Shown here: positions 5,238-55,326 of the stretch, in pieces
Numbering within the stretch: position 1 is the first letter of the stretch
How the letters are laid out: each line of letters starts with the position of its first letter
DNA from: Bryocella elongata
Lineage (GTDB): Bacteria; Acidobacteriota; Terriglobia; Terriglobales; Acidobacteriaceae
Assembly: GCF_900108185.1 (NCBI RefSeq)
Contig: NZ_FNVA01000001.1
Span: 124,001 to 188,000 of the forward strand
Length of the DNA stretch: 64,000 bases
Direction of reading: 5' to 3'
Program-made: the position numbers and the translations under genes
The notes under the pieces: generated by a model
Seen by the model: the letters and a program-made list of their open reading frames with translations, nothing else
Told to the model about the DNA's origin: nothing
Database searches by the model: none

Positions 5238-5240
5238 GGC

Positions 5241-5368
5241 AGCAGAATAGCTGAACAGCTGAACAGCGGAACAGCGGAACAGCAGAATAGCGGAACAGCG
5301 GAACAGCGGAACAGCGGAACAGCGGAACAGCGGAACAGCGGAACAGCGGAATAGCGGAACAGCAGAAC
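5241..5368 (+). repeat. octamer array, 16 units of AGCNGAAY
   Basis: Sixteen consecutive 8-bp units, mostly AGCGGAAC, with AGCTGAAC, AGCAGAAT and AGCGGAAT variants at the ends and middle. The unit is not a multiple of three, so translation cycles through frames every 24 bp. Copies of the same octamer recur at 5458-5520 (inverted), 6806-6866, 15986-16018 and 18604-18640. Confidence 0.95.
5244..5249 (-). promoter_or_regulatory. -10-like TATTCT supplied by repeat unit
   Basis: On the minus strand TATTCT ends 6 nt before the TTG at 5237. The hexamer comes from the variant unit AGCAGAAT. This spacing equals that of other candidate leaderless genes in the window. Confidence 0.3.
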
Positions 5369-5457
5369 AGCTGACCGCATCGGAAGGAGCGGGCACGGCG
5401 GCGGGTTTGGATTCCGCTATTTGCTTGCGGCCGTTGGCATTCAGCGATTCTCTTGAA

Positions 5458-15985: not shown

Positions 15986-16102
15986 CAGCGGAACAGCGGA
16001 ATAGCGGAACAGCGGAACAGCGAAGTGCAAAGACGGTTGCGAGTTATGAGTTGCCAGATGCCAGATGCCAGATGCCAGTTTGCCAGTTTGCCAGTCGCCA
16101 GA
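15986..16102. repeat. octamer array plus GCCAGAT heptamer array
   Basis: Four units of AGCGGAAC/AGCGGAAT (15986-16018), then a run of TGCCAGA and TTGCCAGT units (16052-16102). It fills the whole gap between the kinase stop and the regulator start on the minus strand, so it lies inside the probable ntrYX mRNA. Confidence 0.9.
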
Positions 16103-22977: not shown

Positions 22978-23322
22978 TCAGCTACAGCCAAACTGCTGGC
23001 CAGAACATGTGACCTGATCCGCAGCGCATACTGTGCCGCAATCCTTTCCATTATCTTTCTTCTTCCAGCAATACTTCTCGTACGTCCTCCCGTTGCTGCA
23101 CTTCACTGTTCCGGCTGAAACACGCTGGGCGAAGGCACAGGAACATGAATTGGAGGCGGGTTTACCTTTGGCATCGATTGCGGTGATCTTGCCGGATAAG
23201 TCAATTGTCTGCGGAGACATCGGTTCAGTTTTCACCGCGTGTTTGCAACCGAGCGACTGAAAGGCCAATGCCCCGCAAAGAAGCAGGGGTGTGATAGATG
23301 AAAGCTTCTCAAGACGAAACAT
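22978..23322 (-). CDS. cysteine-rich lipoprotein, possible Kazal-like motif
   Basis: 114 residues. A lipoprotein signal peptide ends in a lipobox SLGC with Cys26 (MFRLEKLSSITPLLLCGALA...). The mature part has about ten Cys in 65 residues (SNSCSCAFAQ, VKCSNGRTYEKYCWKKK, KDCGTVC, VTCSGQQFGCS), implying several disulfides. The CSNGRTYEKYC arrangement recalls the Kazal C-x-N-G-x-T-Y-x(3)-C core, but this is only a resemblance. The frame opens further upstream, but the lipobox fixes the start. Function unknown. Confidence 0.7.
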   Translation of the reverse strand: MFRLEKLSSITPLLLCGALAFQSLGCKHAVKTEPMSPQTIDLSGKITAIDAKGKPASNSCSCAFAQRVSAGTVKCSNGRTYEKYCWKKKDNGKDCGTVCAADQVTCSGQQFGCS

Positions 23323-23522
23323 TGGCTGTACCCTCGTTCGGTGGTGATGATGTCGGAAGCAACGTGCCCGTAGATTGTTATCGAATGTCAAGCCCACCGC
23401 AATGACTTTCGTCCGAGTGGGTGGCGTGGTGGGAACTGGGCGAAAGGCAGGAGTCTCAAATCTGGGCACTTTGCCCTGCAACTCGGCCACCCGCTCACAG
23501 GGCGTCGAAGTAGGCTGGTGAT

Positions 23523-26342
23523 GTGCCTCGTTTTGTTGATGTAGCGTTGCCGATTCCTCTGGACCGTGCGTTTACGTACGGGCTGGGGGAGTTGGAGGCG
23601 TGCGTCGGGGCTCGGGTGCTGGTGCCGTTCTCGGGGCAGAAGCTCATGGGGATCGTGGTGCGGGTGCATGATGAGGCGCCCGTCGCGGACGATCCCAGCA
23701 AGCCGATTGAGATCAAGCGGGTCGAGCAGGTGCTGGATGACGAGGCGCTGCTGTCGGATGAATTGATGGAGCTGGGGCGGTGGATTGCGGCTTACTACTG
23801 CGCTCCGCTGGGGGAGACGCTGCGCGGCATGGTGCCTCTGATGGCGGAGGTCAAGCGGCACTTTGTGTACCGGATCGGCGAGCGGGGCAGGGCGGTGTTG
23901 TATGAGGGCGCGGCGAAGGGGTCTTCGCTGCGGTCAAAGTTGTCGGCCGACGATCAGAACCGGGAGTATGCCGCGCTGAATTATCTCGAGGCGGGCGACG
24001 CGGTGAAGGCTGCGACGATCCGGAGTGCGACGGGGGCGAACAAGGCTCTGCTCGACGGGATGGTGAAGAAGAAGTGGCTGGTGCGGGAGGCGGTGGCGGA
24101 GTCGCGGGACGCGCGGCGGGTGGAGATGGTGGCTGTCCTGAGGGACAGCCAGGGATTAGGGATTAGGGAACAGGGATTAGGGGGCGAGGGTTCAGGGCCC
24201 AGGGTTCAGGGCCCAGGGCCCAGGGCCCAGGGTTCAGAGGGCGATTCGGTGGCGGTGAGAGGAATCGAACCCGAGCCAGAAGTTCCGGACGCGGGGCATC
24301 CGGATGGTGCGGGTGCTGGGGAGAATGTCGATCGGGTTTCGGGTTTGGAGTTTCGGGTTTCGGGTTTGGGGCCGGTTTCTGAAGGGCCAGTTGGTCAGAC
24401 TCCAGATGGCCAGATACCAGCGGAGCTCTCGGTGGCTGCGCGGCGGCTGCCGAAGCTGAATGAGAACCAGCTCGCCGTGATGGCGGAGCTTGCAGGTTGT
24501 GGCGGGCGGGAGCTGGTGCGGGAGCTGCGGGTGCGTTTGGAGCGTGCGGGGGTGCCGGAGTCGACGCTGGGCACGCTGGTGAAGCGGGGCTTGGTGCGGC
24601 TGGAGGAGGTCGCGCAGTCGTTCAGCGTGAGTGGGCTGGGGGCGCATGGGCGGAGGTTTGCGCATGAGCATCGGCTGAACGAGGCGCAGACGGCGGCGCT
24701 GGCGACGATCGTGGCGGCGATGGACAAGGGTGGGTTTGCGCCGCACCTGCTGTTTGGCGTGACGGGGTCGGGCAAGACGGCGGTGTACATTGCGGCGATT
24801 CAGCAGGCGTTGGATCGCGGCCGCTCTGCCCTTCTTCTCGTCCCGGAGATTGGGCTGACGCCGGGGACGGCGATGCACATGGTGGCGGCGTTCGGTGGCG
24901 AGGTGGCGCTGCTGCACTCGCAGCTGACGCCGGATAAGCGTGCGGAGCAGTGGCACCGGATACGGCGGGGCGAGGCGCGGGTGGTGATCGGGACGCGGTC
25001 GGCGGTATTTTCTCCGCTGACGAATCTGGGGCTGATCCTGGTCGACGAAGAGCATGACGGGGCGTACAAGCAGGAGGAGACGCCGCGGTATCACGGGCGT
25101 GATGTGGCGGTGATGCGGGCGAAGCTGGCGGGGTGTGCCGTGGTGCTGGGGTCGGCGACGCCTTCGCTGGAGAGCTGGCATAACGCGGAGCGCGGGCGGT
25201 ATGCGCGGATCGACATGCTGGAGCGGGTGTCGAACCGGCCGATGCCTGCGGTGGAGCTGGTCGATATGCGCGAGGAGTTTCGCGCGACGGGGCAGGAGCA
25301 GATCTTCTCACGCAAGCTGCTGGAGGAGACGCAGGCGACGCTGGACCGCGGGGAGCAGGCGATCATCCTGTTGAACCGGCGCGGATACAGCTTCGTGGTG
25401 ATGTGCCGCAAGTGTGGCGAGAAGATGGAGTGCGAGAACTGCGCGATCTCGCTTACGTACCACAAAGGGCAGGGATCAGGGATTAGGGAACAGGGATTAG
25501 AAGGCGATGTGGCGCCTCCGGGGAGCCGGTTGGAGTGTCATTATTGCGGGTTCAAGGTGGGTGTGCCGAAGGCTTGTCCGCATTGCACGAGCGAGCACTT
25601 GTATTTTCTGGGTGCGGGGTCGCAGCAGGGTGAGGAGCGGCTGGCGGGGTTGTTTCCGGGTGCGCGGATCGGGCGGATGGACCGTGACACGGTGCGGACG
25701 CGTGGCGATATGGAGCGGCTGCTGGAGCGGCTGCACTCGGGCGAGATCAACCTGCTGGTGGGCACGCAGATGATCGCGAAGGGGCATGACATCCACGGGG
25801 TGACGTTTGTGGGCGTGGTGGGTGCGGACTTTGCGCTGGGGCTGCCGGACTTTCGATCGGCGGAGCGGGTGTTTCAGCTGCTCACGCAGGTGAGCGGACG
25901 GGCGGGGCGTGGGGATCTGCCGGGCAAGGTGCTGGTGCAGACGTATCAGCCGGCGCACTATGTGCATGAGTTCTCGCAGCGGCATGACTTTGTGGGCTTC
26001 GCGGCGCGGGAGATGTACTTCCGGCGGGCGATGAAGTATCCGCCGCTGAGTGTGCTGGCGAATGTGCTGGTGCAGGGAGAGACGCTGGAAGAGGTGCTGG
26101 GCTGGTCGGCGAGGATTGGGCGGTGGCTGGAGCGGAAGAAGTTTCCCGGCGTGCGCGTGCTGGGGCCGGCGCCGGCGCCGATCTCGCGGATCAAGCGGAT
26201 CTATCGGTATCACCTGCTGCTGAAGGCGGAGCAGCGGTCGAGGCTGGGTGTGCTGCTGAAGGAGTTTGTGCCGTGGCTGGAGGCGGAGGAGATTCCGCGG
26301 CGGAACGTGGTGGTGGATGTGGATGCGGTGCACCTGATGTAG
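23523..26342 (+). CDS. priA: primosomal protein N' (PriA helicase), enlarged by repeats
   Basis: 939 residues against about 730-830 usually. PriA restarts stalled replication forks as a 3'-5' helicase. The start is GTG at 23523 (MPRFVDVALPIPLDRAFTYG, the 3'BD domain). Walker A GVTGSGKTAVY (near 415), DEEH box LVDEEHDGAYKQEETPRYHGRD, zinc-binding Cys pairs (CRKCGEKMECENC; CHYCG; CPHC) and GTQMIAKGHD are intact. Two additions come from short repeats: residues about 205-302 ([39 protein letters not shown]) and about 17 residues inside the zinc domain (GQGSGIREQGLEGD). Confidence 0.95.
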   Translation: MPRFVDVALPIPLDRAFTYGLGELEACVGARVLVPFSGQKLMGIVVRVHDEAPVADDPSKPIEIKRVEQVLDDEALLSDELMELGRWIAAYYCAPLGETLRGMVPLMAEVKRHFVYRIGERGRAVLYEGAAKGSSLRSKLSADDQNREYAALNYLEAGDAVKAATIRSATGANKALLDGMVKKKWLVREAVAESRDARRVEMVAVLRDSQGLGIREQGLGGEGSGPRVQGPGPRAQGSEGDSVAVRGIEPEPEVPDAGHPDGAGAGENVDRVSGLEFRVSGLGPVSEGPVGQTPDGQIPAELSVAARRLPKLNENQLAVMAELAGCGGRELVRELRVRLERAGVPESTLGTLVKRGLVRLEEVAQSFSVSGLGAHGRRFAHEHRLNEAQTAALATIVAAMDKGGFAPHLLFGVTGSGKTAVYIAAIQQALDRGRSALLLVPEIGLTPGTAMHMVAAFGGEVALLHSQLTPDKRAEQWHRIRRGEARVVIGTRSAVFSPLTNLGLILVDEEHDGAYKQEETPRYHGRDVAVMRAKLAGCAVVLGSATPSLESWHNAERGRYARIDMLERVSNRPMPAVELVDMREEFRATGQEQIFSRKLLEETQATLDRGEQAIILLNRRGYSFVVMCRKCGEKMECENCAISLTYHKGQGSGIREQGLEGDVAPPGSRLECHYCGFKVGVPKACPHCTSEHLYFLGAGSQQGEERLAGLFPGARIGRMDRDTVRTRGDMERLLERLHSGEINLLVGTQMIAKGHDIHGVTFVGVVGADFALGLPDFRSAERVFQLLTQVSGRAGRGDLPGKVLVQTYQPAHYVHEFSQRHDFVGFAAREMYFRRAMKYPPLSVLANVLVQGETLEEVLGWSARIGRWLERKKFPGVRVLGPAPAPISRIKRIYRYHLLLKAEQRSRLGVLLKEFVPWLEAEEIPRRNVVVDVDAVHLM
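24155..24425 (+). repeat. composite repeat insert in priA
   Basis: In order: GGGATTA units (24155-24182), GGGTTCA/GGGCCCA units (24190-24236), TTTCGGG/TTTGG units (24336-24372), then CCAGATGGCCAGAT-type units (24390-24420). The reading frame remains open across all of them. Confidence 0.9.
25478..25502 (+). repeat. GGGATTA repeat insert in priA zinc domain
   Basis: The unit GGGATTAGGGAACAGGGATTA occurs both here and at 24160-24180. It encodes GIREQGL in both places, in the same frame, and lies between the first and second half of the zinc-binding cysteines. Confidence 0.9.
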
Positions 26343-26604
26343 CAGCGCTTCGCGTTAGCCGCTGCGCGGGTAGCGTCGCGCGCTTCGCTCGCGATGATAG
26401 CGCTGCGCGTTAGTGGTGCTCTGCACTGATCGTCGCTGTCCCAAGCAACCCATACCTCAGGGGCTAAGGCCCTGTGATTGCGGGCCTCTTGCAGCGAGAC
26501 TGAAGCCGAGCCCTGACAAGGCGCGACTCATGCCGAGGCTTCTCACCCGCTGCGCGGGTAGCATCGCGCGCTTCGCTTGCGACGTTAGTGCTGCCCGTTA
26601 GTGG
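26343..26604. repeat. intergenic direct repeat pair downstream of priA
   Basis: Copy 1 (26359-26415) and copy 2 (26547-26604) share CCGCTGCGCGGGTAGC, TCGCGCGCTTCGCT and GTTAGTGG in the same order and spacing. Between them lies another repeat-like block with CCTCAGGGGCTAAGGCCC. Copy 2 runs into the 3' end of the M50 gene. No gene is seen in 26343-26597. Confidence 0.8.
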
Positions 26605-42642: not shown

Positions 42643-45186
42643 CTACTTGAGGCGGGTGCCTACGGGGACACCTTCGGGCACGGTGGCGAGGAAGGGCTTG
42701 CCGCCCTCTTCGCTGGCGGCGAGGAGCATGCCGTGGGACTCGAGGCCGCGCATCTTGCGGGGGGCCAGGTTGGCGATGATGAGGATGCGGCGGCCGATGA
42801 GCTCTTCGGGCGTGTACCACTCGGCGATGCCGGAGAGGATCTGGCGCGGGGGCAGAATGTCGCCGAGGGAGACCTCGAGGCGAAGGAGCTTGTCGGCCTT
42901 GGGTATGCGCTCGGCGAGGGTGATCTGGGCGATGCGGAGCTCGACTTTGATGAAGTCGTCGATGGCGATCTGAGGCGAGGCGTCGGCCGGGGCTGCGGGA
43001 GCGGCGGACACGACGGGCGTTTCGGGGGTGTTGGTTGTTGGTTGTTGGGTGTTGGGTGCGAAGGCTTCGCTCGGTGCGGGAGCGGACGCAGGAGTCTCGG
43101 GTGCTGCGGTTGCTGCGGGTGTGGGGTTTTCCATTTCGATCATGAGGTCTGCGAGTCCTTTGTCGGCGCGGGGCAGCACAGGCCCCAGCGTGCCGAGTTT
43201 TGTTCCGGGGGCGAGGCCGCCCCAGTGCATGTCGCCGAGTTCGCCGGAGGTGGCGGCCTCTTCGATGCTGCCGAGTCCGAGCTGCGCCCAGACCTTCGCG
43301 GTGACGAAGGGGCAGTAGGCGTGGAGTGCTGCAGTGGCCCAGCGGACGGCTTCGGCGGACACATAGAGAACTGTTGCCAGGCGGCCGAAGTTGTCAGGAT
43401 CCTTGGCGAGTTTCCACGGGGCGTTGGCGGTGATGAAGCCGTCGGTGATGGTGATGAAGGCGGCGATCTCGGTGAGTGCGGTGGAGAAGTCGGTGGGGCC
43501 GAGCTGCGCGAGCTTTGCGAGCAGGGCGTTGCCGGCGTCGCCGAGGACACCAGCGTTGAAGCCGTCCTTCGTGGCGGCGGGGCCTTCGAAGACGGGCGTG
43601 GGGACTTCGCCGTCGAAGTACTTCTCGATCATGGAGAGGGTTCGGCTGACGAGGTTGCCGTAGCCGTTGGCGAGGTCGGCGTTGTAGCGCGTGACCATGG
43701 CGTCGAAGGAGAAGCTGCCGTCCTGGCCGAAGGGGATCTCGCGGAGGAGGAAGTAGCGGAGTACGTCGGCGGCGAAGTGATCTTTTTCCGCACGGGTTGG
43801 AGCGCGGAAGCCCGGGGCTAAAGCCCCCTTCTCGGGTGGGGTGGTTCCCGCGGGCTGAAGCCCGCTGCTACTCCCGGGTCCCTCATGGGCTGAAGCCCCT
43901 GCATCTTCAACGGGGTTTACGGCACGGCTGAAGCCGTGCCCTTCCGTTTGTGCCTCCACCCCGATGAAGACGGGCGGACAGAGGGTGCCGAAGGCTTCGA
44001 GGATGGTTTCGCTGCGGACGACGTTGCCGCGCGACTTGGACATCTTGGCGTTGTCGAAGAGGAGCCAGCCGTTGGCGGTGATGGCCTTGGGCGTGGGGAT
44101 GCCGGCGGCCATGAGGAAGGCGGGCCAGTAGACGCAGTGGAAGCGCGTGATCTCTTTGCCGACGAGGTGGAGGTCGGCGGGCCAGTACTTGGCGAACTCG
44201 GCTTGGCCCTTGGGGTCGTCGCTGCCGTAGCCTACGGCGGTCATGTAGTTGGCGAGGGCGTCGAGCCAGACGTAGACGACGTGCTTCTGGGTGGCGCCTT
44301 CCTTCTGGAGAATGTCGTCGGGGACGGGGATGCCCCAGGTGAAGCTGCTGCGGGAGATGGAGAGGTCTTTGAGGGCGCCGGGGACACACAAGGCACCGTC
44401 CGACCTCCGCTGCAACTTCCCCTCCGCTACGAGCGCTTCTTCGAGTGCGAGGTGATCAGGCCCCGCAGGTTCTATCAACGGTCGATCACCGGCGGAGTCG
44501 ACGCTCGGTTCGATGATTAGATCAGGCTCCTTCGTCCAATCAAACTCAGCGTTTATTTGTTCAATGATTGCTTCGTCGAAGATGGGCTTGGCATTACCTA
44601 GAACAAAGCTTCGTACCTCATTGCGTGCAGTAGCCGGGGTGATGGCGAGCGCACTCGACTCGATGAGATCGAGCAGCTGCTCCTGGAACGCGCTGAGCTT
44701 GAAGAAGAAGTTCTCTTCGGTGACTTCTTCGAGGGTGCGGCCGCAGTCGGGGCAGGGGGTTCCCACGGGGGCGTCGACGAAGGCTTCGTCGGAGACGCAG
44801 TAGGCTCCGGTGTACTTGTCGAGGTAGATGAAGCCCTTCTCGTACAAGGTGCGGAAGAGGTGTTGCACGCCGCGCTTGTGGCAGTCGTCGGTGGTGCGGA
44901 TGTAGCGGTTGTAGGTGAGGCCCATGCGGTCCCAGAGGGCCTTGAACTGGGCGGAGACCTGGTCTGTAAATTCCTGCGGCGGTACTCCCGCCGCAAGAGC
45001 AGAGCGCTCGATCTTCTGACCGTGCTCGTCGGTCCCGGTGAGGAAGAAGGTGTCGTCACCGCGCTGGCGGTGCTGGCGTGCGAGGACGTCGGCAACGATG
45101 GTGGTGTACGCGTGGCCGATGTGCGGCCGGGCGTTGACGTAGTAGATCGGCGTGGTGAGGTAGAACTTGTTTGGCTGGTCTGACAT
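42643..45186 (-). CDS. metG: methionyl-tRNA synthetase with two unusual insertions
   Basis: 847 residues. Charges tRNA-Met. HIGH motif NARPHIGHAYTTIVADV (near 18), TGTDEHGQKIERSA, KMSKSRGNVV (near 395), and C-terminal tRNA-binding (EMAP/Trbp111) domain IDDFIKVELRIAQI...RKMRGLESHGMLLAASE. Insertion 1 (about 195-265) splits the connective-peptide segment between FVLGN and LKDLSISRSSFTWGIPVP and has lower GC. Insertion 2 (about 414-460) follows ILEAFGT and is encoded by GGGCTGAAGCCC repeats. A Pro/Ala linker (about 690-735) separates the last domain. The start is ATG 45186; TTG 45192 is less likely. Confidence 0.95.
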   Translation of the reverse strand: MSDQPNKFYLTTPIYYVNARPHIGHAYTTIVADVLARQHRQRGDDTFFLTGTDEHGQKIERSALAAGVPPQEFTDQVSAQFKALWDRMGLTYNRYIRTTDDCHKRGVQHLFRTLYEKGFIYLDKYTGAYCVSDEAFVDAPVGTPCPDCGRTLEEVTEENFFFKLSAFQEQLLDLIESSALAITPATARNEVRSFVLGNAKPIFDEAIIEQINAEFDWTKEPDLIIEPSVDSAGDRPLIEPAGPDHLALEEALVAEGKLQRRSDGALCVPGALKDLSISRSSFTWGIPVPDDILQKEGATQKHVVYVWLDALANYMTAVGYGSDDPKGQAEFAKYWPADLHLVGKEITRFHCVYWPAFLMAAGIPTPKAITANGWLLFDNAKMSKSRGNVVRSETILEAFGTLCPPVFIGVEAQTEGHGFSRAVNPVEDAGASAHEGPGSSSGLQPAGTTPPEKGALAPGFRAPTRAEKDHFAADVLRYFLLREIPFGQDGSFSFDAMVTRYNADLANGYGNLVSRTLSMIEKYFDGEVPTPVFEGPAATKDGFNAGVLGDAGNALLAKLAQLGPTDFSTALTEIAAFITITDGFITANAPWKLAKDPDNFGRLATVLYVSAEAVRWATAALHAYCPFVTAKVWAQLGLGSIEEAATSGELGDMHWGGLAPGTKLGTLGPVLPRADKGLADLMIEMENPTPAATAAPETPASAPAPSEAFAPNTQQPTTNTPETPVVSAAPAAPADASPQIAIDDFIKVELRIAQITLAERIPKADKLLRLEVSLGDILPPRQILSGIAEWYTPEELIGRRILIIANLAPRKMRGLESHGMLLAASEEGGKPFLATVPEGVPVGTRLK
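43808..43945. repeat. palindromic repeat insert in metG
   Basis: Four related palindromes: CGGGGCTAAAGCCCC, GCGGGCTGAAGCCCGC, GGGCTGAAGCCCC and GGCACGGCTGAAGCCGTGCC, with intervening GCTACTCCCGGG and CATCTTCAACGGGGTTTAC. The metG frame stays open through it. Confidence 0.92.
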
Positions 45187-45220
45187 TTTCAAATGCCAGT
45201 TTACCGCCTTGGCGGGGAGG

Positions 45221-52137: not shown

Positions 52138-55326
<3,189 letters not shown>

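Follow-up and report, generated by a model that had tools for sequence, protein, structure and literature searches.

Degenerate heptamer arrays scattered over the genome are familiar from the STRR heptamers of heterocystous cyanobacteria, and we know of no account in which these form modules of a fixed four units within essential proteins. The palindromic elements of Rickettsia, likewise short dispersed repeats, occur in frame in protein genes, where they are tolerated in surface loops. Heptameric G-rich repeats have been described as GGGAATC in Xanthomonas and as GGGGA(C/T)T in Nostoc/Anabaena (Rehm et al., 2015; PMC4692102). These show a bias towards four units, form inverted pairs and have intragenic copies (7-11% in xanthomonads, about one third in Anabaena); in xanthomonads they are overwhelmingly intergenic, and no preference for a replication strand was reported (PMC4692102). 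TAACTGA heptamers are known from Beggiatoaceae, cyanobacteria and Bacteroidetes (MacGregor, 2015; PMC4679880). The repeats of Bryocella elongata described here are of the heptameric kind already known from Xanthomonas, Nostoc and Beggiatoaceae; a literature search of limited reach found no report of heptameric repeats in Acidobacteriota. With the Xanthomonas/Nostoc class they share a 7-base unit with a G-run (a GGG tract, at least two units), mixed words, inverted pairs and some intragenic copies. With the TAACTGA repeats they share the occurrence of heptamer arrays across unrelated phyla, mostly between genes and occasionally in open frames, but the TAACTGA repeats have one fixed word, in-gene copies mainly at protein ends, and no 30-bp module (PMC4679880).

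The window, by which we mean the whole stretch of 64,000 nucleotides that was analyzed, contains priA, the gene for the replication restart helicase (23523-26342, forward strand), as a single open frame of 939 amino acids without a stop. The product scores 593.6 bits against TIGR00595 (cut-off 230), as expected of a PriA helicase; its helicase core aligns to Klebsiella PriA (4nl4) with an E-value of 9e-118, and its N-domain matches 2d7e with an E-value of 4e-11. The linker, which follows the 3' DNA-binding domain (residues 6-108) and precedes the helicase core (starting at residue 381), remains unaligned to 4nl4. An earlier note on this DNA had placed repeats between these two domains and had stated that the frame stays open despite them, and both statements hold. 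It had also described four repeat families lying end to end, which is only partly so. The arrays are present, all on the forward strand: array 1 (24151-24180) consists of four heptads plus AG, 30 bp in total (AGGGATT, AGGGATT, AGGGAAC, AGGGATT, AG); array 2 (24187-24237) of seven heptads plus AG, 51 bp in total, with the words AGGGTTC and AGGGCCC; and array 3 (24332-24371) of about five CGGGTTT-type heptads (TRF score 59). However, a non-periodic stretch of about 94 bp (24238-24331) parts the second array from the third, and the fourth repeat (24386-24420) is weak and irregular, a CAG every 7-8 bases with a TRF score of only 40. Clean arrays keep a word skeleton that recurs every 7 bases, and the remaining letters vary. 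The same inventory overlooked a clear 30-bp array at 25471-25500, also on the forward strand (AGGGATC, AGGGATT, AGGGAAC, AGGGATT, AG), in the zinc-binding loop of 20 amino acids, where it sits between the zinc-binding cysteine pairs; the segment is a gap in the 4nl4 sequence between HQAQ and HLRCHHC. A perfect stem-loop, GGCTGTCC-TGAG-GGACAGCC (24131-24150, forward strand; DNA fold z = -5.4), lies directly 5' of array 1 and is absent at priA of the relatives compared. The non-periodic stretch at 24238-24331 matched none of the tRNAs of the contig, and Rfam gave no match over 23300-26600.

The earlier note expected the repeat segment to differ among relatives rather than to be conserved in sequence and length. 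The alignment bears this out: in seventeen PriA proteins from the same genus whose linker is complete, the segment is missing, shorter or swapped for other repeats, and the linker spans 12-65 residues in these relatives as against 101 here. In three of them (G002, G023 and G022) the same linker site holds related words, likewise in frame. In G001 and G017 it is occupied, again in frame, by an unrelated dispersed repeat, GACGATGARGCCGYCGYRARRATGGGGCACCC; each of these two genomes has 6-7 copies of it, G015 has as many as 23, and a search of this genome allowing three mismatches found none. The zinc loop has 20 residues here and 13-15 in relatives, the net gain being +15 bp, not 30, and several relatives have native sequence that resembles the array end, GAGCAGGATCTC where PriA here has GAACAGGGATTAG. 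Judging by the sequences compared, the arrays thus lodge in two PriA loops that were already variable across the genus, and the insert probably has no function of its own in PriA.

PriA is not the only protein concerned. The reverse-strand gene for methionyl-tRNA synthetase (metG, 42643-45192) has an in-frame heptad array at 43026-43058, before the C-terminal tRNA-binding domain, and a second class of insert at 43814-43940, namely three REP-like palindromes, GGGGCTAAAGCCCC, GCGGGCTGAAGCCCGC and GGCACGGCTGAAGCCGTGCC, also in frame. A few further copies of these palindromes occur between nearby genes. Rickettsia palindromic elements are longer and palindromic, whereas the heptad arrays are tandem and not palindromic; the REP-like palindromes, here in MetRS and in the AlaRS of G016, are nearer to the Rickettsia type. 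The uvrA gene (52138-55326, reverse strand) holds two arrays in frame (53895-53924, 54561-54590) and, in inverted orientation, a third (54615-54644). The two oppositely oriented arrays within 54561-54644 could form a long imperfect hairpin, and inverted array pairs are frequent between genes too. Further in-frame arrays were found in AlaRS, a LolC/E-type (lipoprotein-release) permease, MMSDH and a Dpp5-like peptidase, and ortholog alignments place the array sites of these genes in loops that vary across the genus. One AlaRS loop is filled differently in four species: by an octamer array in this genome; by a 30-bp AGNNNCG module in G002 (C1:4800738-4800767, reverse strand; L253), which makes exactly ten codons, SSELREASIE; by REP-like palindromes in G016; and by a dispersed repeat of about 65 bp in G007 (C1:1310075-1310158). 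The last has 42 matches in the G007 genome and is also found inside uvrA of that species (C1:690113-690169), that is, in two essential genes. A native GAGATGTCGTTGGAG stands at the site where the AlaRS of G002 has GAGGCGAGTATCGAG. Since UvrA, MetRS and AlaRS show the same thing as PriA, and since the repeats in one AlaRS loop differ among four species, pre-existing permissive loops are recurrently colonised by repeats, with frame-preserving copies kept by selection.

That selection retains only in-frame copies had been proposed in the earlier note, and our data are consistent with this, within limits. Wherever the syntenic region offers a comparator, the in-gene array is spanned in frame, with no frame shift in any case. 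Words that could form a stop never stand in the stop phase of in-gene arrays (0/15 versus 17/37, Fisher p 0.0009), a test that is partly circular because the genes were called as open frames, and an open frame demands the avoidance of stops anyway; the frame-retention statistics are conditional on the same gene calls. Moreover, 30 bp is divisible by three, which makes the module harmless to the frame as far as length goes. The arrays do not behave as phase-variable simple sequence repeats, since their units differ and no frame shift is seen relative to relatives.

Array analyses covered 1.2 Mb of the contig plus selected 20-kb pieces, and several of the associations reported here came up during exploration. 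At lag 7, autocorrelation over the 1.2 Mb picked out 42 arrays, and at lag 8 it found 15, whereas lags 4, 5, 10, 11 and 13 gave 1-2 and Markov sequence 0-2; the arrays are therefore not due to chance. Running the pattern search on the sequence read backwards does not give a neutral control, since heptads look almost alike when reversed. Three consecutive AGGGNNY words (AGGGNNYAGGGNNYAGGGNNYAG) have 148 matches genome-wide, and the module types occur both between genes and in other genes, in agreement with the earlier claim that the words of priA recur elsewhere. Noncoding DNA holds 33 of 54 arrays and genes hold 21, including mid-gene sites of essential genes, unlike in xanthomonads; AGGGNNY arrays of at least three units are split evenly (10 in-gene, 10 noncoding). 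In 80 kb of this genome there are 19 period-7/8 arrays, as against 0-2 in most syntenic segments (20-60 kb) of relatives and 5 in one. Eight of 19 arrays share the word order TT-AC-TT (ATT-AAC-ATT), a recurrence with a permutation p of about 0.001. Together with the lineage-specific density, this lends partial support to the active spreading process that the earlier note had inferred, with the qualification that the arrays occupy loops already hypervariable in the genus and not conserved sequence.

The number of units is far from free. Among the matches listed for this genome, AGGGNNY arrays have three units in 12 cases, four in 36 and five or more in 3; four units plus AG make 30 bp, or 10 codons. 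This bias (36 of 51 among the matches listed) recalls the Xanthomonas/Nostoc class, but, unlike in that class, a family without G-tracts, AGNNNCG, has the same four-unit mode (19 arrays in G002 and 17 in G023, only 2 longer), less clearly so in this genome, where 11 arrays have three units and 8 have four. Octamer arrays of CAGCGGAA at window positions 5240-5371 and 15986-16022 reach about 16 units and, unlike the heptads, show no four-unit limit. An identical 23-mer composite, AGGGATTAGGGAACAGGGATTAG, occurs in Acidobacteriota, rumen Selenomonadaceae/Clostridiales (Firmicutes), cyanobacteria, Brevundimonas and Phycisphaerales (L031-L110), with a chance expectation far below one in the searched collection. 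Four units is again the mode at loci that a three-unit 23-mer picked out in rumen Selenomonadaceae/Clostridiales and in further Acidobacteriota. Because the same 23 bases appear in several other phyla, the repeat generator seems to be widespread or convergent.

The orientation of the arrays follows the replication skew, again unlike what is known from xanthomonads: the G-rich strand agrees with the local GC skew in 49/54 arrays (p 4e-10), and array density correlates with the absolute skew (rho 0.63). In the array-rich part, third-position skew changes sign with the gene strand, and this is therefore an effect of the replication strand, not of transcription. The GC skew of this contig (G000:C4) varies in patches: it is about +0.2 where arrays are dense (80-500 kb), lies around zero or changes sign in the rest, and shifts abruptly near 80-100 kb. 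Skew is not a sufficient cause of arrays: strong skew is found in the relatives' syntenic segments as well, yet few arrays lie there, which makes skew permissive at most and the burst of arrays lineage-specific. Confinement of the arrays to a foreign island is unsupported as well, as core genes carry them. Hairpins with arms of at least 8 lie directly upstream of 3/7 in-gene AGGG sites, including the one at 24131-24150 in priA, as against 0.18% of random genic positions, an association that was noticed post hoc, concerns few sites and is weak in the set spanning several phyla (p 0.06).

Together, our data suggest a model that we consider likely as a whole: dispersed heptad modules have entered PriA loops that were already variable, by copying linked to replication, and copies that damage frame or fold have been lost. 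The modules would arise or be copied during replication within the lineage, as suggested by their lying on the strand that replication skew enriches in G, sometimes directly after hairpins. Template switching or short-homology copying, which would lengthen near-matching native sequence, is the probable route. Insertion of intact 30-bp blocks is too simple a picture, since net insertions often have other lengths (+15 bp in the PriA zinc loop, +84 and +114 bp in the Dpp5-like peptidase). Any copy that caused a frameshift, introduced a stop or upset the protein fold would be lost, and essential genes would thus be left with frame-neutral copies in flexible loops only. A stronger version can be put forward no more than tentatively, and we would not yet rely on it: four-heptad 30-bp modules may form a distinct class of dispersed elements, comprising at least two unrelated sequence families, that is made or copied as a unit by a replication-linked process other than slippage, and whose 10-codon length aids its spread through essential genes.

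Alternatively, four G-tracts might be kept as a G-quadruplex or protein-binding site with a role in regulation or replication, PriA merely tolerating its copies. AGGGNNY modules do hold exactly four GGG tracts, a predicted quadruplex motif, the orientation of their G-strand is non-random, and the four-unit bias in Xanthomonas has been put down to quadruplex formation with evidence from CD (PMC4692102). We nevertheless regard this account as unlikely, since the AGNNNCG family reaches the same four-unit mode without G-tracts; as the sole or general reason for four units, quadruplex selection is ruled out by that family. Polymerase slippage, that is, ordinary tandem-repeat expansion inside priA of the kind seen in phase-variable simple sequence repeats, appears doubtful to us. 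The dominance of period 7 is already known and has been attributed to slippage (PMC4692102), and long near-uniform arrays do exist, such as ten AGGGATT-type units at C4:873716 or the long CAGCGGAA octamer arrays. Typical arrays, however, end at four units, with four outnumbering three, the same word order returns at distant places, and adjacent words are identical in only 1/38 cases in the AGNNNCG arrays of G002. Slippage alone fails to account for the four-unit mode and the differing neighbour words, and it is disfavoured for the four-unit arrays.

A specific function of the repeats in PriA, for example as a binding linker, would fit the intact frame and the Gly/Arg/Gln-rich composition of the linker, but we hold it to be very improbable, as sequence, length and repeat family are all unconserved in the genus and similar fillers occur in unrelated enzymes. 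Although repeats are error-prone and the assembly is in 16 contigs, an assembly or sequencing artefact is scarcely credible, given the gene-specific flanks, the open frames and similar arrays with the same words in independent assemblies, the single-contig genome of G002 among them.

What is new in the heptad modules described here is that loops of essential proteins are occupied, that orientation follows the skew, that arrays cluster at four heptads even without G-tracts, and that neighbouring words differ. The 30-bp, four-unit quantisation in the absence of G-tracts challenges both standard accounts of bacterial heptamers, slippage and G-quadruplex selection. Within one genus, several families of short repeats have repeatedly come to lie in the same permissive loops, which makes their spread and the selection on frame testable across strains.
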